Part shown: one piece after another, positions 9,574 to 63,599 of the stretch
How the letters are laid out: each line of letters starts with the position of its first letter
Numbering within the stretch: the stretch's first letter is position 1
Made by a program: the position numbers and the translations under genes
Source of the DNA: Magnolia sinica
Taxonomy: Eukaryota; Streptophyta; Magnoliopsida; Magnoliales; Magnoliaceae
Assembly: GCF_029962835.1 (NCBI RefSeq)
Contig: NC_080588.1
Coordinates: 43,879,001-43,943,000 of the forward strand
Direction of reading: 5' to 3'
DNA length: 64,000 nucleotides
The notes under the pieces: generated by a model
Databases searched by the model: none
What the model was told of the DNA's origin: nothing
The model's input: only the letters and a program-made list of their open reading frames with translations

Positions 9574-10014
9574 GGTGCTCTGTGGGCCTTACCATGATGT
9601 ATGTGTTTCATCCATTTCGTTCATCCATTTTTAAAGATCATTTTACAGCTTTATGCAAAAAATTAGAGGGATATAAATCTCAGGTGGTCCACACCACATG
9701 AGAACAATAGTGATTGGATATCCACCATTAAAATCCTCCTAAGGTCCACTATACTGTTTATTTGACATCCAATCTGTTGATTTGGTCATACAGGATCAGA
9801 TGAAGGGGAAAAACAAAAATCAGCTTGATCCAAAACTTTTATGGCTACCAAAATGTTTTTAATGGTAGACGCTCATTCAACATTGTTTCCTATAATGTGG
9901 TCCACTTGAGATATGGATATATCTCATTTTTGGTCTCATATTGTAAAATTATCTGTAAAAATATATGGACAGCATAGATGAAACACATACATCATGGTGG
10001 GGCCACAGAGCACC
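9574..10014. mobile_element. Fold-back element A (MITE-like)
   Basis: The left end reads GGTGCTCTGTGGGCC and runs into CATGATGTATGTGTTTCATC. The right end is its reverse complement with a few changes, closing with CACAGAGCACC. The element is about 440 bp with long inverted ends and no coding capacity. It belongs to the fold-back family seen across the window. Confidence 0.75.
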
Positions 10015-10083
10015 GACCACTAGCCATTGGCTGGTGTCGAGGGAGTAGTCAATCTGATCCCAAGCGTACGAAGTAAATCCTGT

Positions 10084-10500
10084 GAGGCCCACCATGATTT
10101 ATTCATTTATCCACTCCATCTATCCATTTTAACATATAATTTTATTACATAAGCGCAAAAATGAAGCCTATAAAAATCTGAAGTGGACCACATCATAGGA
10201 AATAGTATAAACTGAACATCTAACATTGAAAAATTTTGGGAGGCCATTGAAGTTTTGGATCAAGTTGATATTTTAGTTTTCCCTTCATCCATGTATTTAT
10301 GATCTATTGAACAAGTTGGATGACAAATAAAAATCACTGTAAGCCATAGGAAGATTTCAACGGTGGAAATCATTATTCGCACTGTTTCCTGTCGTATGGT
10401 CCACTTGAGCTTTGGATATGCTTTAATTTTGCGCTCACCACTAAAATGATCTGGAAAAATGGATTGACAGTGTAGATAAAACACTTACATCACTGTGGGC
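10084..10500. mobile_element. Fold-back element B (MITE-like)
   Basis: The left end GAGGCCCACCATGATTTATT is mirrored at the right by CACTTACATCACTGTGGGC. It is non-coding and lies between element A and its inverted partner. Confidence 0.6.
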
Positions 10501-14762: not shown

Positions 14763-15016
14763 CCCTTTCAGCACTGTATTCAACTGTTTATATTAGTGGA
14801 TATGTGATGATGATGTTGCCTTTATGATTTGGGTAAACTTGTGGTTATGCTTCTTACGAGATAAATGTATGTTGGAAAATTCTCCTTTTGGATCTTAAGA
14901 TCGGAATCTAGCGTATGGAAGCTGGGACCTGAGAATGGGGTACTGCGGAGGTTGTCAGCACCGGATTCGGTGACCGGGAATTCTGTGAGCCTGATTTCTG
15001 AGTTTAGGGTGTGACA
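13143..15016 (+). mobile_element. Del/Tekay-type LTR (family B), partial
   Basis: This is collinear with the right-hand half of the long LTR at 57761-61888. Shared landmarks are the CATGCCCATGCGCATCATATG region, CACTGTGTCGTGGTCAGTTA, CTTTCTATAAGCTTATGCA and the terminal TTTAGGGTGTGACA. Its right edge abuts the pol remnant of the outer Athila-like element at 15017, and its left edge abuts the CACTA terminus. An AT microsatellite (14706-14760) lies inside. It is an old, non-coding fossil. Confidence 0.8.
14706..14760. repeat. (AT)n microsatellite
   Basis: An uninterrupted AT dinucleotide run inside the LTR piece. Confidence 0.95.
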
Positions 15017-15049
15017 CAATGTGTCGGCGTGAAACCTATAGCAAGATAA

Positions 15050-16300
15050 TTAGCAATATCTATAAACCAAGGTGAGTGGGAGACTTTAAATAGTTGTTCA
15101 TCAGGGAACATATCATTTATACGTGTCGTCTCAAGGGAATCAGAGAGATCAAGGCGGGAAAGATGGTCAGCTACTACGTTCTCTACTCCCTTTTTATCTT
15201 TTATTTCTAAATCGAATTCTTGGAGTATGAGGATCCATCTTATCAGGTGGGGCTTAGCATCATTCTTAGAAAGAAGATACTTAAGTATCACATAATCTAT
15301 ATAAATGACGATCTTGGATTCGATTAAGGACCTAAATTTGTCCAAAGCGAACACTACGGCTGAGAGTTCCTTTTCTGTAGTAGAGTAGTTCACTTGGGTA
15401 GGATTTAGAGTTCTACTTGAATAATGAATAACGTAGGGCCTCTTTTCTTTTCTCTGGCCTAAAATCACCCCAAGAGCATAACCAGACACGTCACACATAA
15501 GTTCAAAAGGAAGGCTCCAATCGGGTGGCTACATGATAGGTGCAGTGGTTAACATGCCCTTGAGCTTAGTAAAAGCTTCCTGGCATTGCTCAGTGCACTC
15601 ATATGGGATATCCTTTTGAAGTATATTACATAAAGGATGAAAAATCCTTTATGAATCTTCTGTAAAATTCAACATATCCTAAAAAGGATCACACGTCTCA
15701 TATGTTCTTGGGTGGAGGTAAGTTAGAGATAAGATCATTCTTAACCTTATCTATCTCAATTCCCTTTGATGAGATGATATGTCCAAGGACAATTCCCTTA
15801 CGAACCATGAAATGACACTTCTCCCAATTCAGAACCTATTTCCTTTCCTCACATTGCTTCAACACATTTTTCAAATTGTCCAAGCATTCGCTGAAGGATG
15901 GACCAAAAACCAAGAAATCTTCCATGAAGACCTCTAAATATTGCCCCACTATATCAGAAAAAATACTCACCATGTATCGCTGAAAAGTGGAGGGGGCATT
16001 ACACAGCCCAAATGACATCCTTTGGTAGGCAAAGGTGTTAAAAGGACATGTGAACCTCGGCCTTAACCACTTTCTTCATGTTTGGATTTAACTTACGTTG
16101 TGGTTGCTAGGAGGTCTTCACATTATCCTCTAGATAAATGCAGTGAGTACAAATCGAAGGGTCAATTCCCTTGAGGTCCGCAATCGACCATCCAAGGGCC
16201 CCTTTATGCTCAATGAGAGTAGAAATGAGCATACTCTCTTGTTCTTACTCAAGGTGGGAAGAAATCACCACTGGGTATGTCTCATCTTGACCTAAATAGG
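15050..16300 (-). pseudogene. Outer Athila-like pol remnant (RT and RNase H)
   Basis: Reverse transcriptase is recognised from SFGLCNAPSTFQRYM and the GQYLEVFMEDF region (about 15836-16018). RNase H is recognised from TEKELSAVVFALDKF and ADHLSRLDLSD (about 15004-15498). The order on the minus strand is the usual one. It is a fossil, with no functional reading expected. Confidence 0.85.
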
Positions 16301-17127
16301 CATATTTCAAATCAGAGGGCAAAGGTTTTAGGTTAAGCGTTGATGCCTTAAGGTTAGACGGTAGAGGCACTACATTAGTTTGGGGCAATTCTTCAAATCA
16401 TGGCTTCCACTAGTTAACTTCAAGTACTGACACAGTATCAAGCATGGCTCCTGTCTTCCTAATCATATCATCGTCCAAATCAGAGTTCTATCCTCCATGA
16501 AAGAATCAATCAAGTTAACATCATGGGCATCATCATCATCCTCTACATGTTTGCCCGTATTAAAAAAAATATTCAACTACAATGTCATATTTCTAAAAGA
16601 CAAACTCATCACCCATTCCTGTAATTAATGATTGCATTTGATGTGGTAAGGAATGCCCGACTAATGATGACAGGAATTTGAGTGCTCATGTCCACGGTGG
16701 GTTGAGTATCCATGACGATAAAATCTACCGAGTAGTAGAATTTGTCAACCTAAACCAACACATCCTTAATTATCCCTCTCGATACTCGAACTAAGCAGTC
16801 AACAAGTTGTAATGTGGTTTGGGTGGATTTTAATTCACCTAAACCTAGTTGTTCATAGACCAAGTAAGGAATCAGATTTACGCTCGCTCCTAAGTCAAGA
16901 AGTGCGTGCTCAATCCAGTAATTCCCAATTATACAAGGGATGGTTGGGCTACTGGGATCTTTATATTTTTATAGCACATCTTGCTTGAGGATGGTACTCA
17001 CTTTTTCTATCAAAAAAATTTTCTTTTTGATACTTTGCCACCTCTTAGTCGTGCACAAGTCTTTCAGAAATTTGGCATGTGAAGGTATTTGTTTAATCAC
17101 ATCCAGTAAAGGAATATTGACCTTCAC

Positions 17128-18600
17128 TTATTTCAACACATCTAGAATGTCCTGAGAGTTAGAGAGAGATTTTGGTGTAATCAACCATTGGGAGAATGGT
17201 GCAATCGGCTTGCTCAGATGTTCTAGTTCTAATCCATGTGGAGTGTTGCTAGGTCTATCAGTTTCATCTAATTCTAGGTCCTTAGACTTTTCAGCCCTTA
17301 TTAGAATAGATTTGTCAATTATCTTCCCACTCCTAAGAGTGGTAATAGACTTAGCTTGCTCCATTTGATTTGAAGAGCTTGGATCACTTATTTCGTATTG
17401 TTGTTTAGGATTGGGGAAAGGTTGGGCTAAAAGAGTCCATTTTTCTCTAATTGAATTTTTTGTCTCACATCCTTGTATAGCATTTGAAAGGTCTTGAAGG
17501 GTTTGCAATATACTCTGATTGATAAGCTCTTGGTTTTGAATATGTTTCCAAACCGGATCCTCTTGAGGTTTCCCTTGATTTAAGAATTGGTTAGGGATTC
17601 CTTACGAAGTAGCAGTTTGTCCATTCCTCCAACTAAAGTTCAGATGATTTCTCCAACTAGGATTGTATGTGTTAGAGATGGGTCCACTGAAAGGTCTTTG
17701 GTAGTTATTCATGACATTCGATTGCTCGTTCAATGCCTCTTGAAAAGAAGGTATCATCAGGAAATTCTCAATTGTATGTATATTGTAAGCACAGATACCG
17801 CAAACAACTTCCTTAGGCTTATCCTTCTTAAGTTCTATGGCCTCGACCTTCCTTATGAGACTGACCACTTTAGCATTTATATCATCATCCTCTTTCAACA
17901 AGTATATCCCACCCCTCTCCCTTGCTTGAGTAAGCTTAGATGTGGTGCTAGATTTTGGGGAGATGTCCCATGATTGTACGGTTTCAGCGAATTTGTCAAA
18001 GTAATCCCACACCTCATCGACATTCTTGTTCATGAACTCCCCGTTGCACATCGTCTCGACGAATTGGCACATGGAAGATGTCAGTCCATCGTGGAAGAAA
18101 GTTGTTATGCGCCACAATTCAAAACCGTGTTGTGGGCATAAACTGACGAGATCCTTGAACTGTTCCTAACATTTGAAGAATGTTTCATCTTCCTTTTGGG
18201 TGAAGTTCATGATCGACTTCCTGATGGTGTTCGTCTTATGATATGGAAAGAATTTTTTTATGAACTCCTTCATCATGTCATTCCATGTGCCAATAGATCG
18301 CGGGCATAGTGAGTGTAACCATGTCTTAGCTTTCTCTTTCAAGGAGAAAGGAAAGAGTTTAAGCCTGACCGTGTCCTCAGACACGTTAGGAAAGTATAAA
18401 GTGGCTATAACCTCATCAAATTCTTGTAAGTGTAGGTATAGACTTTCAGATTCAAGTCCAAGGAACTTTGGAAGGAGTTGGATCACTCCAAGCTTGATAT
18501 CCACGTTTCATGTGTTTCCTGAAAAACCATACATGAGGGTGTGCTCACCCCCGTCAGATGTAAATAATCTTATAAAGTACAAGGCAAGGGTGCATGGTGC
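17128..18600 (-). pseudogene. Outer Athila-like gag remnant
   Basis: The capsid region at 18166-18504 carries IQLLPKFLGLESES and ATLYFPNVSEDTVRLKLFPF. The adjacent region at 17602-18117 carries FVETMCNGEFMNKN and the downstream NNYQRPF segment. The same strings appear in the inner element at 21230-22080, showing that both belong to one family. Confidence 0.85.
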
Positions 18601-33974: not shown

Positions 33975-34514
33975 ATTGGGGGCAAAAATACAAGTCCGAA
34001 GATTCGGACTTAATGCCTCGGGACTCGGACTTAATACCTCGGGTCACCGAAGGATGTGTCAAATCCGAGGCATGGTTCGCTAAACCGAGACAATGGTTGA
34101 GTCGGTTCGGACGACTTATCAGCGTTCCGGGCATGTGTCGGGCGGACCACCTTGCAAGACCGACCGTCGCTAGGTCAGATCTCATCCCGAATATCTTGGG
34201 ATAAGATCTCTGACCCCGAAGCTCACGGGATCGGATGACGGCTCAAGACGGGCACGATCCTACCTCCGTGATCCCAGGAGAAGATCCCGCGCTAAATATC
34301 AGGAGGACCCCAGCAGCTATAAAAGGAGGACCCCTGTCACCTTGAGAGGTACGAAACAAATTCCCTCTAAAAACCTTTCAATACTTTGAGACCCCGAATC
34401 CAGGCCTGACTTTGGCATCGGAGGGTCCCCTGCTCAAGCCAGGGTCTCCTTTGTCCTCTTCCTGTGCAGGCATACAAGGGTTCAGGAGGACGAACCAGAT
34501 ACATTGCATCAACA
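33974..34514 (+). repeat. 5' LTR of Tat element
   Basis: 541 bp, containing GGGGGCAAAAATACAAGTCC near its start, a TATAAAA box at 34318-34324, and CATTGCATCAACA at its right edge, followed by the primer-binding site. Confidence 0.9.
34318..34324 (+). promoter_or_regulatory. TATA box of Tat 5' LTR
   Basis: TATAAAA in the context CAGCAGCTATAAAAGGAGG, about 200 bp before the LTR edge. It is the expected promoter for the genomic transcript. Confidence 0.75.
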
Positions 34515-34517
34515 ATT

Positions 34518-34535
34518 TGGCGCCGCCTGTGGGAA
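34518..34535 (+). other. Primer-binding site of Tat element
   Basis: TGGCGCCGCCTGTGGGAA starts three bases after the LTR edge, the characteristic Tat-lineage primer site. Confidence 0.88.
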
Positions 34536-34575
34536 CCGTGCAAGAAAGCCATCTCGTATCACTATATTGATTCCA

Positions 34576-35836
34576 ATGGTGATGACTAGAAGGACGGTCC
34601 CAGAGGAAGATTTAAATGAGATTGAAGGACCGGTGGGTCCAGTCGCGGCCCCCGCGGCCCAGAACCCACCTAACAACCGCCAACGAGGAGCGACCCGGAC
34701 AAGCAACAATCAGCGGGATCGCGACGATGGACGGTTGGATAAGGAGGTTCAAGAAATCCGGTCTGATATGAATATGATGAAGCAGATGCTGGAACGAATG
34801 TATCAGCAACAAATGCAGCCGCTCCCTCATCCTCAAGGGGAGACGGCACGGGCTCCAGCTACGGCTACGGCGGTTGATCCTCAACCTCCCGCGCCGCAGT
34901 CTGTCCGCCCAAGCCAACCCCAAGGCGGATCAGAACCATCTCCGGCGCAGTCAGCCAACGCTTCCCTGCCCCCGACTGATCTTCGGCACGAAATAGAGCG
35001 AAGAAGGCGCAATCGCCCTTCCATGGAAGGCACGGCAGAAAGCAGCGAAACATGGAAAGCCAAATTTTAAAAAAGAAGTGCGGGAAGAGATGGCAAAAGA
35101 GATGGCGGACATAAAGCACGGCCGGAATGTATATTCAACCGGGTCCGAAGCGAAGGCATCCCCCTTTGTGGACTCGGTACTGAAGGCCCGATTGCCCGAG
35201 AGGTTTCGATTACCTCAAATCACTCCTTTCACCGGCAAGACCGACCCGACCGAGCATATCGAGTGCTTCAGAACCTATATGGAACTTCACGATGCCTCGG
35301 ATGCAGTAATGTGTCGGGCCTTTTCTCTTACATTGACTGATGTAGCTCGACTGTGGTTCAAACAGCTGAAACCAAAGTCCATCAGTTCATTCGTTGAGTT
35401 GAGCGACGCCTTCCTCACCAACTTCATCGGCGGAAAGAAGAAATTGAAGCCCCCTGCACATCTGAATAGCGTAGTTCAGAAGCAGGGAGAGCTATTGAAA
35501 GATTACATCAAGCGTTTTAATTTCGAATCCCTTCAAGTTCGAAAACATTCGGAAGAAACGGCCCTCAATGCGCTCATGCAAGGAGTTAGGGATAAGCCAT
35601 TCCTGGCATCTCTAGACAAAACTCCGCCCGATACTCTGGCAGAGTTTATGGCACGATCCGATAAATATGCCAACGCCGAGGAAGCGCGAATCCTGCGTGA
35701 AACTAAAACCTTGGCCAAAGAGTCGGCCAAAAAAGAGGCCGACTCGGCCGGAGGAAGGAAACGCAAGATCAAGCGCGTGACGAGCGAAGGTCAGGAAAAC
35801 GGCCGGATCGAAGATTTTCCACATATACTCCCCTGA
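34576..35836 (+). pseudogene. Tat gag region
   Basis: The likely start is the ATG at 34576 (MTRRTVPEEDLNEIEG follows shortly). It is followed by a proline- and glutamine-rich linker with MKQMLERMYQQQ and then a capsid domain at about 35170-35700 with FTGKTDPTEHIECFRTYM and WFKQLKPKSISSF. The zinc-knuckle-like segment CHYHRDHGHNTSDC follows at about 35938-35980. This part packages the element RNA. It is nearly whole but not perfect. Confidence 0.88.
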
Positions 35837-35859
35837 ATAAGACTCGGGAAGAGGTACTG

Positions 35860-38800
35860 ATGGAAATAAAAAACGAAGGCTTTGTTAGCTGGCCCAGTAA
35901 GCTCAGGAGTAATCCTAATCGGCGGGACAAGGATAAGTACTGCCATTATCACCGCGATCACGGGCATAACACAAGTGATTGCCGTCACTTAAAAGAAGAG
36001 ATCGAACGACTCATAAAAGACGGCCGACTCAGAGAACATATGGTCAAAGCTGGGGCAGCTGAGGCGCGCCCGACCGAGAGTCAACCTATGGAAGAAATCC
36101 GGACGATTATCGGCGGTCCACAATGTGGGGGCGACTCAAACAACGCGCGAAGGAATCATGCACGAAAACTTAGTCAGCCTCAGTCCGAGCTCATGATTAT
36201 AGATCGGCCATCAAAGGAAAAGAAAAGAGAAAAATATTGCATATCGTTCACTGAGGAAGACGCCCGAGGTATCCATCACCCCCACGATGATGCGTTGATC
36301 GTCTCCTTGGCGATCGCTAACCGAAAAGTGTTCCGAATACTCGTCGATACAGGATCATCTGCAGACGTATTGTTTAGTGGGGCGTTCGACAAAATGGGGA
36401 TCGAACGATCCGCGTTACGCCCGATTCGGACCCCATTGATCGGTTTTTCCGGAGGACAGGTACTGCCCGAGGGGACTGTCTCATTACCACTCACTGCTGG
36501 CAATGCCCCACATCAGACGACGATGATGGTTGACTTCCTGGTCGTCGATCAACCCTCGGTATACAACGGGATACTCGGCCGACCTTCATTGAGTCTCCTC
36601 CAGGCCGTGGTATCCACATACCATCTTACAATGAAATTCCCGACCGAGTCAGGAGTCGGAATTGTCAAAGGAGACCAGCAAGACGCGAGGCGATGTTACA
36701 TGATAGCTGTAAAAGGAGCCGCCGACAAGAATCCGACCAACATATTAACAATCGAATCATTGGACCCTCGGGGCGAGAATTATGAACGAGGACAGCCGGT
36801 CGAAGATCTTGTCTCAATCCCCTTAGTCGAAACAGATGAATCCAAGACAGTACGAATTGGCTCATCTCTGCAGTCCCCTTTGAGAGAAAAGCTGATCGCC
36901 CTGCTCCGAAGGCACGCCGACGTATTTGCTTGGAGTCATGAAGATATGCGAGGGATCGACCCCTCCGTAGTGACTCACCGACTTAACGTCGATCCGTCAT
37001 ATCGACCGATCCGACAGAAGCGACGACCGCTCGGCCCTGAACGATACGCCATCATTGAAAAAGAGGTCAATAAACTACTCCAGGCTAATTTCATAGAAGA
37101 AATACACTATCCAGAGTGGGTCGCGAATGTCGTGCTTGTAAAGAAATCCAACGGGAAGTGGCGAGTCTGTATTGACTATACCGACTTAAATAAAGCCTGC
37201 CCCAAGGATAGCTTTCCGCTTCCGAGGATAGACCAGCTAGTAGATAGTACAGCCGGACATGAGCTCCTTAGCTTCATGGATGCATATTCAGGATATAATC
37301 AAATTGTAATGCATCAAACAGATAAATCAAAAACGACCTTTGTCACCGACAAAGGCCTTTATTGTTACCGAGTGATGCCATTTGGTCTGAAGAATGCCGG
37401 CGCAACTTATCAAAGGTTAGTTAACAAAATCTTTGCTCGGCTTATAGGCCGAACCATGGAAGTATACGTCGACGACATGCTCGTCAAAAGCATACACGCG
37501 GCAGATCATGTGAATAATTTGGAAGAAATGTTTCTAATCCTACGGAAGTTCTGGATGAAGCTAAATCCAAGTAAATGTGCTTTTGGAGTAGGCTCCGGAA
37601 AATTTCTCGGTTTCTTGGTCGATCAATGAGGAATAGAGGCAAACCCCGAGAAGATAAAGGCTTGATTGATATGGAATCCCCAAAACCATTAAGGACGTCC
37701 AAAGGTTGGCCGGACGAGTCGCAACACTTAATCGATTCCTGTCCGAGCCACGGATAAATGTCTCTCTTTCTTCAAACAATTGAAAGGAAGACAAGCGATG
37801 GGTTGGACGGAAGAGTGTGAAGCGGCATTCCCAACAATTAAAATCATATCTCGGTTCTCGCACCACTCTTATCAAAACCCGAACCGGGGGAGTCGTTGCT
37901 CCTCTACCTAGCGGTAGGCGGCGGTTAGCTCGGCTTTGATACGAGAATCAGAAGGAAAGCAACTGCCGGTTTATACGTCAGCAAAGCGTTACTGCCTGCA
38001 GAAACGAGATACCCAAGCTTGGAAAAAGTGGCCTTGGCTTTAATAACTTCCTCTCGGCGACTTAGGCCGTATTTCCATGCCCACACCATCATAGTAATGA
38101 CCGACCTTCCGCTTCGCCAGGTACTGCAGAAACCAGAAGCTTCCGGCCGACTCACCAAATGGGCTATCGAGCTGAGTGAGTTTGATATTCAATACCGACC
38201 AAAGGCAGCAATCAAAGGGCAAGCCGTAGCTGATTTTATCGCCGAGGGAACGTCTTCAACCGAACTTTCAGTAAATGATACACTGAAGGACGGTGCAGTT
38301 CCGACCTCAACCGTTCCCCCTTGCCCTATTCCGTGGAATCTGTATGTCGACGGTTCTTCCAACTCGAAGGCCAGTGGGGCTGGGGTTGTGCTGGAACCCC
38401 CGATCATACCTATATACAGTATGCCTTACGACTTGGATTCCAAGCGTCGAACAATACGGCGGAATATGAAGCGTTGTTACTCGGCCTCCGACTCGCCGCT
38501 AGCATGGAAGTCACGCACCTAAGTGTTTTCAGCGACTCTCAGTTGGTTGTTAACCAAGTTACCGGTGTATACCAGACACGGAAAGACCGGCTAAGGGCTT
38601 ACATGGAGAAAGCGAAAGAACTTATCAACGGATTTCAATTCTGTCGTGTGACTCGGATCCCTCGCACGGAAAACAGCAAAGCCGATTTGCTAGCGAAGCT
38701 CGCCTCGGACAAAGAAGATGAAATACCCAGGTCCGTCCCTGTCGAATACGTTGACAAGCCAAGCATAGATGAGCCGATTAGCGAGGCCGTCAATACAATC

Positions 38801-40049
38801 GACTCGGAACCTTCCTGGATTGATCCAATCCGCCAATACCTTGACGAAGGAAAATTGCCCGATGATCGTGCCGAGGCTCGACGAATTAAGATTCGAGCCT
38901 CCCGTTATACCATATTCAACGGAACCCTCTACAAGAAAGGTTACTACGCCCCGTTGCTGCGGTGCCTCAAACCCAGCGAGGCAAACTATGTGTTGCGGGA
39001 AATTCATGAAGGAATCTGCGGAAACCACTCTGGAGGGCGATCCCTCGCCTACAAGGTCCTACGACAGGGATACTACTGGCCCACTATCCAACACGACGCT
39101 CGCGAGCTCGTTCAAAAATGCGACAGATGCCAACGGTTCGCGGTAATTCCGAGGCAAGCACCCGAAGCACTAACGCCGATGACCGGTCCCTGGCCTTTCG
39201 CACAGTGGGGCGTCGACATCATAGGACCGCTCCCTATGGGAAAAGGTCAGACCAAGTTTGCTGTGGTAGCGGTGGACTATTTCACGAAGTGGGCCGAGGC
39301 GTAACCATTAGCTAAAATAACCGAGCGAAGATCACCGAATTTGTATGGAAAAACATTATCTGCCGATTCGGGGTACCCGTACCATTATTACTGACAACGG
39401 AAGGCAATTTGATAATGAAGCTTTCGCGGGATGTGCGACAACCTCGGAATCGGAACACGTTTACTCTTCGCCTCATCATCCTCAAACCAACGGACAAGTT
39501 GAAGCGGTTAATAAGATTATCAAGCAACATCTTCGGACCAAGCTTGGCCGAGCCAAAGGAGCGTGGGCCGAAGAGCTCCCGAAAATTCTTTGGGCCTACC
39601 GAACCACCGCTCGAACAGCCACGGGGGAGACTCCATTTTCACTAGCCTATGGCTCGGAAGCCGTCACTCCCGTTGAAATCGGATTACCTTCGGCTCGGAT
39701 CACCACATTCAATGCAGAAGCAAACGAAGAACTCCTTGCACTCGGACTTGACCTTCTGGACGAACAAAGAGAAGTGGCACGGCTGCGCGCGGAGGCGCGG
39801 CAGCGACAAGTGGCTCGGTTCTACAATACCCGAGTTAGGATTAGAAGATTTCGAATGGGGGATATGGTTCTTCGAAAAGTGTTTTCTAACACCAAGGAAT
39901 TTGGTTCGGGTACACTGGGACCCAACTGGGAAGGACCCTACATCGTCTCGGGCACCATTAGACCGGGAACGTATCAGCTAGAAGACCTAAACGGACAACC
40001 GTTGCCCCACCCTTGGAACGCTGAACACCTCAAAGTCTACTATCCCTAG
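35860..40049 (+). pseudogene. Tat pol region (PR, RT, RNase H, aRNase H, INT)
   Basis: Domains in order: protease with LVDTGSSADVLF at about 36340-36375; reverse transcriptase about 37060-37630 with MPFGLKNAGATYQ and the YVDD catalytic motif; a first RNase H and tether about 37700-38250 (ELSEFDIQYRPK); the archaeal-type RNase H about 38330-38700 (YVDGSSN, NNTAEYEALLLG, ENSKADLLAKLAS); integrase zinc finger about 38990-39130 (HEGICGNHSGG, CDRCQ); integrase core about 39180-39620 (VDIIGPLP, TDNGRQF, HHPQTNGQVEA); and a C-terminal domain ending LKVYYP at 40049. It contains a few breaks. Confidence 0.9.
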
Positions 40050-40217: not shown

Positions 40218-42537
40218 TCATGCACCGGCCTCGTCCCCAGCAGTATCTTCAGCAGTGGCGTCCGGGTTCTCGGATCCCGAGGCTGCTCCACCCTCGATTT
40301 CTGAAAGGTCAAGGTCAGGGAAGGATTTCTTTATGTCCTTGATGCATTCCAGATATCCGCTTTGGAACAAGCGGTCCCTTTCATCCTCGAACTCCGCCGA
40401 CTCGAGGAATGCTTGGACGGCTTGGTCCCTAGCCTTCTCGGCCTCCCGAGTATTCTCGACGGCCTGCTGAATGTGCTCCGCCGCCTCAAGCTTAGCCCGA
40501 GCTAAGTCATCCGCACACGAAGCATGGACTGCTAGAACTCGCTGATTCTCCTCTTCAGCTTTGGAGAGTCGAGCCAGTGCCTGAGCGACCTCTGCCTTCG
40601 CTTCGTCCAGGGCTCTTCTGGAGGAAGCCGCCTCTGCCCTCACGTCTTCGGCAGCTTTCCGGGCAAGGGACGCCTCGCCTGTCAGGACGCCGACCCGGAT
40701 CTCGGCCTCCTCGCGTCGACCTTCGGCCTCAGACAGAAGAGCCTGCAGCCGATGAGTTGAGGATAGCTCCTTGCTGGCCTTGATTAAGCAAGGAGCGAGT
40801 TCAAAAAGCATCCGGGCAGCGTGGCTGACGGTCTGTGATGACGGGGCGTTGTAGAGTTTCACGAACTCTCTTTCACACCCATGGGCCAGGGCCCAAGGAA
40901 CCATCCCCGACACCACTTGCTGCAGGATTGACGGCCCCTCCTGGTCCGTCTCCTCCCCTCGGGAGGACGCGGTCCTCGTCTCTCCCTCCCCTCTGGAGGA
41001 CGCGGCCCCGGCCTCTTCTTCCCGACTCGGCACATCCGTCTCAACGCGTGCCGAGTCAGGTGCCGCCTGAGGCTCCGAAGCAGCAATCGCCGTCTCTTCC
41101 GCCCTTTCGTCCGGGTCGGGAATCACGACGACGGAAGGGGCAGAAGAGCTCACTGGCTCTTTCTCCTTCCGCAGCACCCTTTGCCTCTTCGGCGGCCGAG
41201 GTTCCGAAAGAAGAACTGACCGCGGAGGAGCCTTCAACTTCGTGACTGGCCTAAGGGCAGGACGAGCTCCAGTCATCTCCGGTTCGGGGACAATCCTAAG
41301 GTTGGGACGAGCTTCGGGCAGATCTGTAAAAAAAAAAAAAAAAGAGAATAAGTTATGGCGAAGTAAGTCGGGGGAAATTCGGAAAATCCAGAAGATTCAT
41401 TCTCAATTACCTGTAACTTCCGAGTCCAGACCTGCAAGATGAAGGCGCTCCGGCTGTAGAAGCACCTTCCAAGACCTGTCCCTCGGATCCAACGACCTCA
41501 ACTCTTTGATCCGAGCCGAGGCAGTGGTGCCGAGCTTCGGCCGCTTCTTTGGAATATCTGCCAAACACAAGCCCGTCAGACTCAGAATATTACCAAAAAA
41601 AAAAAAAAGGGGGCGAGAGGGAGGAGAGGGAGAGAAGACCCAAGTCACCTGCTCTTTGGAACGCCCGAGGGACACGAGCCTCGTAGGACCCGGACTCATC
41701 CGTCTCCCAGCGACCACATGCCCAAAACCAACGCTCTCTCCAGTGTTTGTTGGAAGTGGGAGGGTCGGTTATCAGGGAACCGCCTCCGCCTCGCCAAGCA
41801 GCGAAGACGTAGAAGCCGGGATAGTTCGGATTTACCCGCACTTGATACAGGTGGAGAAATTCGTCGACTGTAAGCGGTGGCTGTTCCATCTCAGCCCACA
41901 ACACCGCACATCCGAGTAAGTTCCTCCACCCATTCGGGACTATCTGCCCCGGGGCAATCTTTATGCGAGACAGAACTCCCCGGACGATGGTCTGAAGGGG
42001 CAGACGCAAGCCGCATTGCATCGACACTTGGTAAATCGCGACTGCCCCGGCCGGAGGGTGATCCGGCAAGTCATTCGGACGGGGGAGATAGGTGATGACC
42101 GACTCGGGAATATGGTACCCGACTCGGATTCTGTCCAAATCCGTCTCAGTCATGACTGAGGGAACCGGACCGCTTAAATCTTCCCCCGATCCTTCTTCTT
42201 CAGACTCGGCCTGCGCCGATTCACCAACGGGAGCAAGATCAGGGGTTCCTTCGGCGATTAAAATTTCATCTTCTTCCTCCTCATCCTCCTCCATGTCCCT
42301 TGGCAAGTTAGGCCTTCCCGGGCGGGTTAATAGAGACGACCCGCCCCGAGAAGGAACGACGGAAGCCGGGCGCTCCGCCGGAGCTTCGGTGACTCTCTCC
42401 GGTAGACAAGCAGCGTTGGCGTCCACTGCTATCTCCGTCAGTAAGGAAGGCGATTCCGCAACGTTCCAAAAACGTTGCGCTTCGCCTTCGTCTCCAGAAG
42501 CTCCCCCCTGAGGACTTTGAGAACTCCTATCCGCCAT
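40218..42537 (-). CDS. Three-exon antisense gene inside Tat retrotransposon (Transposase_28-like plus coiled coil)
   Basis: On the strand opposite to gag-pol there are three exons: 41649-42537, 41411-41557 and 40218-41323. They are separated by introns of 91 bp (41558-41648; donor GTGACT, acceptor TTTGGCAG) and 87 bp (41324-41410; donor GTAATT, acceptor TTTTTTTACAG). Both introns fall in phase 1, and exon lengths sum to 2142 bp, an uninterrupted 713-codon gene. Exon 1 has an acidic N-terminus, then a folded region (CGLRLPLQTIVRGVLSRI, then NGWRNLLGCAVLWAEM) resembling the 'putative gypsy-type transposon' (Transposase_28) domain. Exon 3 carries a basic, nuclear-signal-like KRQRVLRKEK and a long alanine/glutamate-rich coiled coil. 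Extra antisense ORFs between integrase and the 3' LTR are known in Tat elements such as maize Grande. Function is unknown; a nuclear or regulatory role is only a guess. Confidence 0.8.
41324..41410 (-). other. Intron 2 of antisense gene
   Basis: 87 bp, GT-AG, phase 1 on both sides, with a long polypyrimidine tract (about 15 T) directly before the acceptor ACAG. Confidence 0.78.
41558..41648 (-). other. Intron 1 of antisense gene
   Basis: 91 bp, GT-AG, phase 1 on both sides, with a T-rich tract. The frame joined by the splice stays open. Confidence 0.75.
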
Positions 42538-42721
42538 TATTACCTAATAAAGAGGAAGGAGAAACTCACCGGAGGGAGAAAGGAAAACGGAAATGGCGGA
42601 AAGAGGCACCGACGGTTAAGAGAAAGGAAAGGAAGGAGATGAAAGGCTATGCGAACCCCAAAGAAAATGCGGAGCGGGAATGGCAAGAGCAGTAAAAGTT
42701 TAAAGTGCGGGGCCCCTGACG

Positions 42722-42729
42722 TTATATAA
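42722..42729 (-). promoter_or_regulatory. Likely TATA box for the antisense gene
   Basis: TTATATAA lies about 185 bp upstream of the antisense start codon in a GC-rich context. This spacing suits a transcription start near 42690 and a 5' leader of about 150 bp. Confidence 0.55.
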
Positions 42730-43017
42730 GGTCGCCATACGGCGGAGACAATTAATGGGGAAATGATTCGACGCCTGCATCGATTCCCTCACTCGACACG
42801 TGGCGCACGTCGACTGGCGACAATAATACCTTTGCTACGTGTCCAATCTTCGTTGGCGGGATGTGTGATTTGACGGCTGACGGCGCATGCGATGTCAGAA
42901 GCTGAACCGTCCCCCATCAAAGGCCTCACGGAATGCATTTAATGACCACGACTCATCTCGGACTAAGTTACGAACCGACTCCAAACTCGCTACTCCTCAG
43001 TGTCATATGAAGCACAC

Positions 43018-43034: not shown

Positions 43035-43325
43035 TGTTGGGGGCAAAAATACAAGTCCGAAGATTCGGACTTAATGCCTCGGGACTCGGACTTAATACCT
43101 CGGGTCACCGAAGGATGTGTCAAATCCGAGGCATGGTTCGCTAAACCGAGACAATGGTTGAGTCGGTTCGGACGACTTATCAGCGTTCCGGGCATGTGTC
43201 GGGCGGACCACCTTGCAAGACCGATCGTCGCTAGGTCAGATCTCATCCCGGATATCTTGGGATAAGATCTCCGACCCCGAAGCTCACGGGATCGGATGAC
43301 GGCTCAAGACGGGCACGATCCTATC
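43035..43325 (+). repeat. Partial 3' LTR of Tat element
   Basis: This matches the first ~290 bp of the 5' LTR with about four to five differences. It then joins a second copy of the upstream flank at a CTCC string shared by both partners. Confidence 0.9.
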
Positions 43326-43529
43326 TCCCAACCTTTCTTGTGCATATGATATCAAACTCGTCCCATAAATTGGCCATTATGATCACCCTATTTTGGAAAA
43401 TACATATGTAAAAGACACTCATTAGTGGACCACACTTTTGTTTGTTTATTTACCCATGTCTGGAGGATGTTTTATAGTGTGGCCTACTTAATTTGCAGGT
43501 AAGACTGAACTTTGTACTATATGATCCTT
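43326..43529 (+). repeat. Duplicated flank, right copy (apparent empty site)
   Basis: The 204 bp repeat of 33771-33974 runs on without a break into TTAGTGGGGCTAACC, where the left copy meets the element instead. It therefore looks like the uninserted target site joined to the element's right side. Confidence 0.9.
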
Positions 43530-44049: not shown

Positions 44050-44609
44050 GGACGCGGATTAGATGCTGACCGGTTGAGTAGCCAGATTCGCCTTTGAAGT
44101 GACCCCACCAAGTTCCGTGCAACCCACCATGATGTATGTGTGTTATCCACACCATCCATCCATTTGGAGAGATCATTTTAGGTCACGAGGCAAAGAATGA
44201 GTCAGATGCTAATCTGGAGTGGATCCCACCACAGAAAACAGGGGAAGAATGACGCCCACCGTTGAAACCTTCCTAAGGTCCACTATGATGTTTATCTGAG
44301 ATCTAATGTGTTTATAAGTTAAGACAGACATGAAAGAAGGGAAAACAGAAATTTCAGCTTGATCGAAAACCTTTGTGGCCCTCAGAAATTTTTAACGGTG
44401 GACATCACTCTATCCACTGTTTTCTATGGTGAGGTCCACTCGAGTTTTTTTATCTGACTCATTCTTTGTATCAAGCCATAAATTGATATCTCCAAATAGA
44501 GGGACAGCACGGATACAACACATACACCCGGGTGAGTCCCACATAACTTGGTGACGTCACTTGACCAGCGATTCTCGCTGCTCAACCTGTCAGTAGCTAA
44601 TCCGCGTCC
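44050..44609. mobile_element. Mutator-like MITE (fold-back)
   Basis: The terminal inverted repeats are GGACGCGGATTAG at the left and CTAATCCGCGTCC at the right, extending inward to CTGACCGGTTGAG/CTCAACCTGTCAG. Flanking nonamers CCGGTTAGT (44041-44049) and CCAGTTGGT (44610-44618) agree at seven of nine positions, as expected for an old 9 bp Mutator-type target duplication. The element is 560 bp and non-coding. Confidence 0.75.
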
Positions 44610-47067: not shown

Positions 47068-47521
47068 CCATGAATACCACTAGCCGTCACAAGGCTAAGC
47101 AATGCAAGACAGGAATACCATCTGCCAATCAAGGGCTATGCAATGCGGGGTTATACAGCCAAGTGACATATGCAATATGCAATGCGATCATGCTCATCCT
47201 CATATCAAGTTCACAAATCAGTACAGTTCCTCTCCGAAAAATCACAGGGGTGAAATACACTACCTGCTTACTGCCCCTCTCTTACGCTCGCTGGGCTGTG
47301 CGGCTAGGAGAGCGGCAGTCAGTAGGTAGTGTATTTAATCCCGGTGATTTCCCAGAGAGGAACTATACTGATTTGTTGACTTGATATGAGGATTAGCATG
47401 ACCGCATTGCATATTGCATATGGCACTTGCCTGTATGGCCCCGTATTTCATAGCCCTTGATTAGCAGATGGCATTCTAGCCTTGCATTGCTTAGCCTTGT
47501 GACGGCTAGTGGTATTCATGG
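47068..47521. repeat. 454 bp palindrome (inverted repeat)
   Basis: The left arm starts CCATGAATACCACTAGCCGT and the right arm ends ACGGCTAGTGGTATTCATGG. The outer ~40 bp are perfectly complementary, and similarity continues inward to a loop near 47284-47308. The right arm continues as a family B LTR; the left arm is the same LTR piece inverted. Confidence 0.9.
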
Positions 47522-61888: not shown

Positions 61889-62600
61889 GCTGCCCTCCAG
61901 GGGCAAAGTCGACAGACAGAGGAGACTCCGGAGTAGAGAGAGCAGACATAAGTGAGTGCCTTTTATCGAGATTTTTGTCAGTACAATCCCCCACGTTTCA
62001 GGGGTGAGCCTGATCTCACAGCGGCCGAGTTATGGCATGTAGAGGTGGAGAGGATCTTTGATAACATGCGATGTACATCACAAGAGCGAGTTCCTCTGGT
62101 CATTTTTCTTCTTCAGGGCGAGGCCCAAAACTGGTGGCCTTCTATTTCCAGATCAGTTGAGAGAGATTTTGTGTGGACCTGGAAGGACTTCGTGGATAAT
62201 TTCAACCAGAAGTTCTTCCCTGAGCATGTTTGGGAGCAGAGAGCGCTAGAGTTCAAGACCCTTGTTCAGGGTGATATAACCATGTCTCAGTATGAGGCAC
62301 GTTTTGTTGCTTTGTCCAGATTCGCCACCTATCTTGTTGATGACGAGAGGGGGAAGGCCTGCCGTTTTGTGAACAGCTTGCATCCCGCTCTCAGGAGTAG
62401 AGTGGTTGGGCATCTTCTTACTACATTTGCTGAGGTTGTACATAGGGCCCTAGTGTATGAGGAAGATTGGGCTACCTATCAGAGGTCCCGAGATCAGGGT
62501 GGAGACCGAAAGAGGAAGACGCATTCCGGTAGCTCCCACCAGAAACAACACCGTTGGCATAGGGACCGTTCAGGGTTTCGATAACTAGCAACACAGCCAG
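61889..62600 (+). pseudogene. Gag capsid region of Del/Tekay-like element
   Basis: A retrotransposon gag domain with NPPRFRGEPDLTAAELW, FLLQGEAQNWW, FNQKFFPEHVWEQRALEF and GDITMSQYEARFVALSRFA lies at about 61952-62400, followed by a basic tail (GGDRKRKTHS). This is the capsid core of Ty3/gypsy chromoviruses. Confidence 0.88.
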
Positions 62601-62654
62601 TGACATCTTCTTCCCAGCCAGCTTTATCTTCTTTTAGACCATTCACCAGAGTTT

Positions 62655-62705
62655 GTTTCGGTTGTGGGCAGATGGGACATCGTAGAAGCAAGTGTCCTTA
62701 TCCCC
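62655..62705 (+). other. Gag CCHC zinc knuckle
   Basis: The translation CFGCGQMGHRRSKC fits C-X2-C-X4-H-X4-C, the RNA-binding knuckle at the end of gag. Confidence 0.85.
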
Positions 62706-63019
62706 AACAGTAGCAGAAGAGGGCACCGCCCACAGCAGCCCCCACATCAGCCACCATAGCAGCAGCAACAAAGACCCCAGCACCAGCCTCTTAGGCCTCC
62801 TCCACGGCAGTAGAGGCAATAGGGTAGGCCGCTGCAATGACCACAACAACAGCAGAGACCGTAGCAGAGGGGTCGGGTACCTCCCCGTTGGCTTAGGGCA
62901 GGTTTTATGCCACTCAACAGGTCACAGACCCTTAGACGTTAAGCTTGCTTACCTTGCCATCTTAGGGTAGATTCTATGCTGCACAACAAGTGCAGGGCCA
63001 GGATCCTCAGTTGTCGTCG

Positions 63020-63380
63020 GGAGGAATAGTCGAGGGTATTCTTCTTGTCTTCGCTTCTATTGTTTGTATATTGTTTGATTTCGGAGCGTCGTATTCGTTT
63101 GTGGCCGAGGAGTTTTGTCGATCGACTGATCTTCCGTCGGAGTCCACTCATAAGGCTCTATCTGTTTCGACTCCCTTGGGGAAGTCTGCCGTTATAGGTC
63201 GTATGTGTTGGTTTTGTCCCATGCTAGTTAGAGAGATGTTCCTGCCTGCGGACTTGTACATATTGGTGATGGCTGAGTATGATGTTATCCTGGGTATGGA
63301 TTGGCTTACCGAGTACCACGTTGTGTTGGACTGCTCTACTAGGACAGTCACGTTTGCATATCCAGCTTGCCTATGTTCTA
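63020..63380 (+). pseudogene. Protease region of Del/Tekay-like element
   Basis: The family segments GASYSFVAEEFC, LSVSTPLGKSAVIGRMC and DVILGMDWLTEYHVVLDC are present in order. The domain is recognisable, but the element as a whole is broken. Confidence 0.85.
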
Positions 63381-63599
63381 GTTCGTTGCCGAGCCCAGAG
63401 GAGGCTGTTGTCTAGCTTGTTGGCTTGTGTTGTTGAGGAGTCAGTGGCTAGGTGTTTTGAGCAGTTACCAGTTGTTTGTAAGTTTTCGGATATGTTTCAG
63501 GAGATTCCAGGTTTGTCACCGCGCCGATAGATAGAGTTTCAGATAGATCTGGTGCTCGGTACCGCGCTTATCTCGGAGGCCCCATATTGGATGACACTA

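Follow-up and report, generated by a model that had tools for sequence, protein, structure and literature searches.

A predicted three-exon antisense gene with conserved introns in a probable Retand-type retrotransposon of Magnolia sinica

We analyzed a 64,000-nucleotide stretch of the Magnolia sinica genome (hereafter the window) and found that a Ty3 retrotransposon within it carries, on the minus strand between pol and the 3′ LTR, a three-exon gene whose protein is under purifying selection. The gene model, as judged from its sequence, represents a real gene. Probably it is spliced, serves a Retand-type (Tat, Ty3) element as an antisense accessory gene and encodes a nuclear regulator or an anti-silencing factor. 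The kind of gene is already known; what appears to be added here is the conserved two-intron build, the selection measured on the protein and the missing intronless copies.

Results

Structure of the antisense gene

The gene runs from position 42537 to position 40218 of the window on the minus strand and comprises 714 codons including the stop, i.e., 713 residues, with no internal stop. Exon 1, with the start codon, occupies 41649..42537 (889 nt), exon 2 occupies 41411..41557 (147 nt) and exon 3, with the stop codon, occupies 40218..41323 (1106 nt). They are separated by intron 1 (41558..41648, 91 nt) and intron 2 (41324..41410, 87 nt), all on the minus strand, and both introns are of the GT-AG type and in phase 1. 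The unbroken model of three exons and two phase-1 introns that the sequence-only reading had put forward was confirmed from the sequence in every one of these figures. Each intron contains an in-frame stop, the frame of exon 1 ending at 41590 and that of exon 2 at 41403. When up to two GT-AG introns of 60–150 nt were allowed, the longest frame in the gene stretch was 2172 nt, compared with a mean of 783 nt and a maximum of 1341 nt in 60 dinucleotide shuffles and 924 nt on the opposite strand. Codon usage, trained on the pol frames, favored the gene frame in exons 1 and 3 (0.00 and 0.03, respectively, with the remaining antisense frames scoring between −0.21 and −0.27) and was not clearly in its favor in exon 2 (0.027 versus −0.161 and 0.028).

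A TATA box (TATATAA, 42722..42728, minus strand) is located 185 nt ahead of the start codon and approximately 300 bp into the internal region from the 3′ LTR. This element, read earlier as TATA-like, was present as CTTATA(T/A)A in all 26 copies compared below. In the window copy no ATG intervenes between the TATA box and the start codon, and three of the 26 copies (L046, L036 and L013) have one ATG near the TATA box. A 60-nt block upstream of the TATA box (42,738–42,797) was 0.90–0.97 identical in four diverged copies, and a leader block (42,618–42,677) was less alike in the same four (0.73–0.83).

The host element

All parts of the element other than the antisense gene are on the plus strand. 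The aligned part of the 5′ LTR, whose outer ends are uncertain, is at 33976..34267 (98.63% over 292 nt by self-BLAST) and the 3′ LTR, placed by alignment, is at 43035..43330; the pair showed four differences in about 292 aligned bases, all of them transitions. By position and reading, gag consists of two overlapping, broken frames (34390..35836), and a Pfam scan of the first of them gave no gag match. It is followed by a frame for protease and reverse transcriptase (35707..37629; RVT_1 108.5 bits, and Asp_protease_2 20.9 bits, under the cut-off), a first RNase H frame (37929..38522; RT_RNaseH 50.3 bits), a frame with the second RNase H and the integrase zinc domain (38279..39304; RVT_3 66.9 bits, Integrase_H2C2 41.6 bits) and, from the ORF list, the later part of the integrase (39321..40049; rve_3 18.1 bits, under the cut-off). 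Pol, ending at 40049, and the antisense gene, ending at 40218, are thus tail to tail. Neither a clean target-site duplication nor a primer site could be established.

The matches to RT_RNaseH and RVT_3 were both over their cut-offs, and such a dual RNase H has been named as a Tat feature (PMC9289625). Judged by its domains and layout, the element is a Ty3 retrotransposon, probably of the Tat/Retand type. The region from pol to the 3′ LTR, approximately 2,985 bp, is within the range given for Retand (2,933–6,566 bp), and the LTR, approximately 296 bp, is slightly under the range given (315–1,194 bp; PMC11963269). Both features of the Retand TRP28 gene were found here, namely an antisense gene between pol and the 3′ LTR and PF04195 over its curated cut-off. 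In other collections, exact-peptide patterns, which reach close relatives only, found no relatives of the exon 1, integrase and reverse transcriptase queries among viral contigs; a collection of genome contigs gave one locus, bacterial and unrelated (25% identity); and tblastn of the reverse transcriptase gave three plasmid records, each below 60% identity, and no phage.

The predicted protein

A profile search of the predicted protein, which the sequence-only reading had proposed as a check, detected a Transposase_28 (PF04195) domain at 41836..42024 (minus strand) with 28.8 bits, over the Pfam cut-off of 26.2. In a single-sequence AlphaFold model of the exon 3 piece 40221–40931 (237 residues), residues 34–203 (40323..40832, minus strand) were predicted to form one 170-residue helix, which is likely a coiled coil; the mean pLDDT was 82, with blocks above 90 across residues 71–170. 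The exon 3 matches to SMC-type profiles were weak and far under the cut-off, which is the usual behavior of coiled coils. The pairing of a Transposase_28-like region with a long coiled coil, as first described, therefore stands for the domain and for a long helix as predicted by the model, while the coiled-coil pairing itself is only likely.

At the start of exon 2 is a motif, PKKRPKL (41532..41552, minus strand, read from the translation), that resembles nuclear localization signals. It would be placed on the same chain as the Transposase_28 domain only in the spliced product, and was not seen in the nine distant loci inspected for it. Sequence and profile searches found no solved structure resembling the domain (best E values 0.79 and 0.096), and an AlphaFold model of the Transposase_28 half alone was unusable, with a pLDDT of 41.

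Introns and promoter in related copies

An exon 1 search of the 1.84 Gb genome resulted in 133 scored places, including the window, from 5539 first-look candidates. All 133 had at least 90% identity, and 25 of them contained an internal stop. Transposase_28 was over its cut-off at 150 scored places. For comparison we used 26 copies: the window, 20 copies read from the reverse transcriptase past the antisense gene, and L006, L013, L035, L036 and L039. These had been picked for resembling exon 1 or matching the Pfam model, which biases exon 1 toward intactness, and exons 2 and 3, the introns and pol were under no direct selection in the choice. Of the 20 fetched copies, 19 had pol next to the gene; none was found in L049, and it was partial in L046 and L055. 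One place, L042 (the same as L005), has a 154-bp piece upstream of the antisense gene, where the aligned region begins, present twice in tandem.

GT was found at both donors in all 26 copies, and AG in 25 of 26 at acceptor 1 (the exception being L035) and in 25 of 26 at acceptor 2 (the exception, as aligned, being L006), so that the splice sites first read in one copy are kept among its relatives. Exon 1 was 889 nt in 22 copies, 3 or 6 nt shorter in three and 1 nt shorter in L013, and exon 2 was 147 nt in 25 copies and 144 nt in one. The introns varied in length, from 60 to 94 nt for intron 1 and from 67 to 103 nt for intron 2, and differed from those of the window by a non-multiple of three in 13 of 25 copies (intron 1) and 14 of 25 copies (intron 2).

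Distant families

We also examined 27 Transposase_28 loci, among them L013, one of the close copies included above. The exon 1 match reached at least residue 293 in 15 of them, and in 14 of these 15 (13 of 14 without L013) the GT of donor 1 was exactly at the homologous exon end; the lone exception, L030, has GC. Identity over the last matched stretch was 31–63% in the distant loci where donor 1 could be judged, and the 14 distant loci are not all independent, since L024/L025 and L032/L033 are probable same-family copies. In the remaining 12 loci, where the match stops at or before residue 282, AG|GT was 5 or 6 nt off the guessed position in five and no clear site was seen in seven.

An exon 2 match was obtained in eight loci including L013, with AG at the predicted acceptor in seven (six of seven without L013). 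The predicted second donor was GT in five of the eight; CAG|GT was shifted by 1 nt in L038 and by 5 nt in L026, and none was present in L010. The acceptor of intron 2 and the start of exon 3 were legible by eye in several of nine distant loci, and pol was located on the opposite strand downstream of the gene in three of four. Comparison of copies within this genome shows that selection has preserved both the introns and the protein in related families of elements.

Selection on the protein

We calculated dN/dS by the Nei–Gojobori method against the window copy, with deep copies at dS 0.26–0.61 in exon 1. The exon 1 ratios were 0.11 (L039), 0.16 (L035), 0.11 (L036) and 0.10 (L013), and the ratio of the region from reverse transcriptase to integrase was 0.10 in each of five copies. 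In exon 3, which played no part in choosing copies, the ratios were 0.12 (L039), 0.14 (L036) and 0.22 (L013, 142 codons only), with L035 left out there for its seven frameshifts. Two of these deep copies, L036 and L013, carry breaks of their own in exon 1. Among young copies, exon 1 gave 0.12 over 231 pairs, a value biased by the choice of copies, and pairs with an intact exon 3 gave 0.27–0.36 in that exon; the higher exon 3 ratio is expected if copies drift after insertion. Exon 2 was looser in young copies (mean 0.33 over 231 pairs, and as high as 0.72 in individual pairs that include the window) and gave 0.10–0.19 in deep pairs.

Other frames of the same alignments served as a control and had ratios of 1.1 to 4.5 with 6–22 stops. 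The mirror frame, which shares third positions, had ratios of 0.14–0.22, but with 6–14 stops, and the gene frame had no stop except one in exon 1 of L036. With ratios of 0.10–0.16 in exon 1 and 0.12–0.22 in exon 3 of the deep copies, far below the value near 1 named in advance as damaging to the idea of a gene, purifying selection acts on the protein.

One copy, L048, was considered as a mosaic, given an overall exon 3 dS of 0.37 against the window; sliding identity and protein alignment showed an out-of-frame patch instead. Its spliced frame is open, but the patch shifts about 70 residues in the helix region out of the frame used in the window. L048 was not scored among the intact copies; its ratio of 0.42 in exon 3 was set aside, as was the mean over 36 exon 3 pairs, in which L048 was included.

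Decay of the gene and of pol

In the window copy the antisense gene is clean and the region from reverse transcriptase to integrase, scored against the frame of another copy (L052), has 12 frameshifts and two stops after removal of a reference artifact. The artifact was a frameshift common to 15 copies, attributable to a fault of L052, and its removal lowered the pol count from 151 to 137 over 18 copies. Together with gag, which is split over two overlapping frames, these breaks agree with the earlier remark that the sense genes were already damaged. Exons 2 and 3 had 47 disabling changes in 7,753 codons, or 2.02 per kb (19 copies, best of two references), and 2.82 per kb on a multiple alignment of 18 copies. 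The corresponding figure for reverse transcriptase to integrase was 162 in 16,615 codons, or 3.25 per kb (18 copies; 3.53 with the artifact). The whole gene was intact in five of 20 covered copies (the window, L043, L044, L045 and L057), the truncated L049 being left out of this count, and reverse transcriptase to integrase was unbroken in one of 20, namely the frame reference itself.

The claim that the gene outlasts gag-pol agrees with the direction of this difference (2.02 versus 3.25 per kb), but the gap is modest, clustered and biased by the sampling of copies by exon 1 likeness, and the claim is weakly supported. In pol, L041, L047, L058 and the window (approximately 37,580–37,990) show dense small deletions, mostly private and many of 1–8 bp, and these deletion-rich copies have cleaner stretches elsewhere.

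Absence of intronless copies

Neither spliced junction matched anywhere in the genome within three mismatches. Judged from the 26 copies, 25 and 21 of them, respectively, would have been found if spliced. As a positive control, the unspliced border of exon 2 and intron 2 was found at 277 places. The lack of any spliced junction against 277 unspliced borders indicates that no intronless copy of this family, whether derived from genomic RNA or from antisense mRNA, was detected. On the simplest reading, the introns pass through because the genomic RNA bears them reversed, where they are invisible to the spliceosome, and the spliced antisense mRNA, lacking LTRs, would by the known mechanism of reverse transcription be unable to enter the cycle. 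An intron-bearing antisense gene in a Tat-type element, as originally proposed, is upheld by the conserved splice sites and TATA box and by the lack of a detected intronless copy.

Discussion

Proposed mechanism

We propose that host RNA polymerase II would start at the TATA promoter described above to give an antisense pre-mRNA from which host splicing would take out the two small phase-1 introns. The resulting mRNA would encode a protein of about 713 residues with an acidic leader, the Transposase_28 domain and the long helix, which most likely acts in the nucleus as an oligomer on DNA or RNA of the element itself, as a regulator or an anti-silencing factor. The introns would survive because the reverse-transcribed RNA runs the other way, so that they read CT...AC there and stay unspliced. 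We infer that this is the most likely course of transcription, splicing, nuclear entry, oligomer formation and function. The long helix, together with the published prediction that TRP28 binds DNA (PMC11963269) and the nuclear antisense protein of Grande (PMC7264820), points to an oligomeric nuclear factor.

Alternative explanations

The same long helix would, as modeled, suit an aid to particle assembly, and a structural, non-nuclear protein is an alternative that we consider unlikely; the Grande antisense protein is described as nuclear (PMC7264820), and the protein here would presumably be translated from a separate mRNA and not from the gag-pol RNA. Somewhat less likely again is that the antisense transcript matters as RNA, through double-stranded RNA, as a source of siRNA or by interference, with the protein incidental. 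The gene would yield more than 2 kb of RNA able to pair with the genomic RNA, and antisense transcription of such regions is reported to feed silencing in some cases (PMC7264820). Selection on the amino-acid sequence speaks against a role of the RNA only: the deep ratios of exons 1 and 3 given above were obtained in the gene frame, and exon 1 length differs in only four of 26 copies, by a multiple of three in three of them, while the introns vary freely. The exon 1 part of this evidence is biased by the choice of copies and the exon 3 part is unbiased.

Two further explanations seem very improbable to us. Multi-exon genes in retroelements suggest capture, and the window copy is intact, as would be the case for a host gene recently captured by the element or for a copy domesticated by the host. 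Nevertheless, there are 133 places of at least 90% identity, 150 Transposase_28 places over the cut-off and the same introns in distant loci, and TRP28 is described as having no similarity outside transposable elements (PMC11963269). The earlier suggestion of a host-acquired gene is therefore unsupported as far as recent acquisition is concerned, the same gene with its introns being present in families that have diverged within this genome; the gene may still stem from a very old capture. The least probable of all is that the introns are mere damage, an antisense frame once unbroken having been interrupted at two spots by frameshifts or stops. T-rich tracts can pass for introns, and damage would likewise predict a genome without spliced copies; against this, the interruptions are at the same positions in loci at 31–63% identity, free length variation is confined to them and both borders match the splice consensus. 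A spliced antisense gene for a nuclear factor is the reading that we favor.

Relation to known systems

Antisense ORFs in Tat elements were known before, as the sequence-only reading had stated. Antisense TRP28 ORFs, identified with ORF Finder, have been called characteristic of Retand, occurring in 97% of clusters (Vicient 2025, PMC11963269). As described there, they share with the present gene the antisense orientation, the position between pol and the 3′ LTR, Transposase_28 and, in some, SMC-type parts. They are described as ORFs, whereas the gene here is one three-exon gene with conserved introns and measured selection, and the words intron and splicing are absent from the text of that paper. 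The pvRetro ORF2 of common bean is likewise given as single ORFs, in contrast to the three exons here, and the word intron is absent from that source (PMC4093653). The maize Grande gene23 is also antisense, with its own promoter, a nuclear protein and a long 3′ internal region (PMC7264820), a likeness drawn from its description.

Outside plants, HBZ of HTLV-1 and APH of HTLV-2, -3 and -4 are described as spliced antisense genes of retroelements expressed from the 3′ side, HBZ being a nuclear bZIP regulator (PMC10186651). The HTLV antisense promoter is in the 3′ LTR, whereas the promoter here is in the internal region. The likeness to HBZ is one of layout and of possible working only, the present gene being known from DNA and its conserved splice sites.

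Selection on the protein is of the same order as that on pol, so the protein matters to the element, and the conserved introns and protein suggest a real role in the element's life. The three-exon model gives a coding sequence that can be tested and may explain how ORF finders would come to divide the gene, and it provides a clear natural case of introns outliving retrotransposition by pointing the wrong way. With somewhat less than even confidence, we tentatively extend this to flowering plants in general, where the antisense TRP28 genes carried by Tat/Retand elements may as a rule be one ancient three-exon gene for an oligomeric nuclear factor required in every lineage, some of the published single ORFs being its exons. 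If so, plants would have their own equivalent of the HTLV spliced antisense regulators, and two introns would have been carried in reverse through countless rounds of reverse transcription.

Other features of the window

Overlapping direct repeats form an array at 1–1240 of the window, and its first 2 kb are strongly G-skewed. Fold-back repeats at 9595–10492, 44050–44609 and 47068–47521 match their own reverse complement at 71–86%, and ORFs at 15004–18165 and 61952–63415 resemble, by eye, pieces of other LTR retrotransposons. A match to the plant snoRNA snoR71 was found at 18122–18228, with 40.2 bits against the Rfam cut-off of 40.
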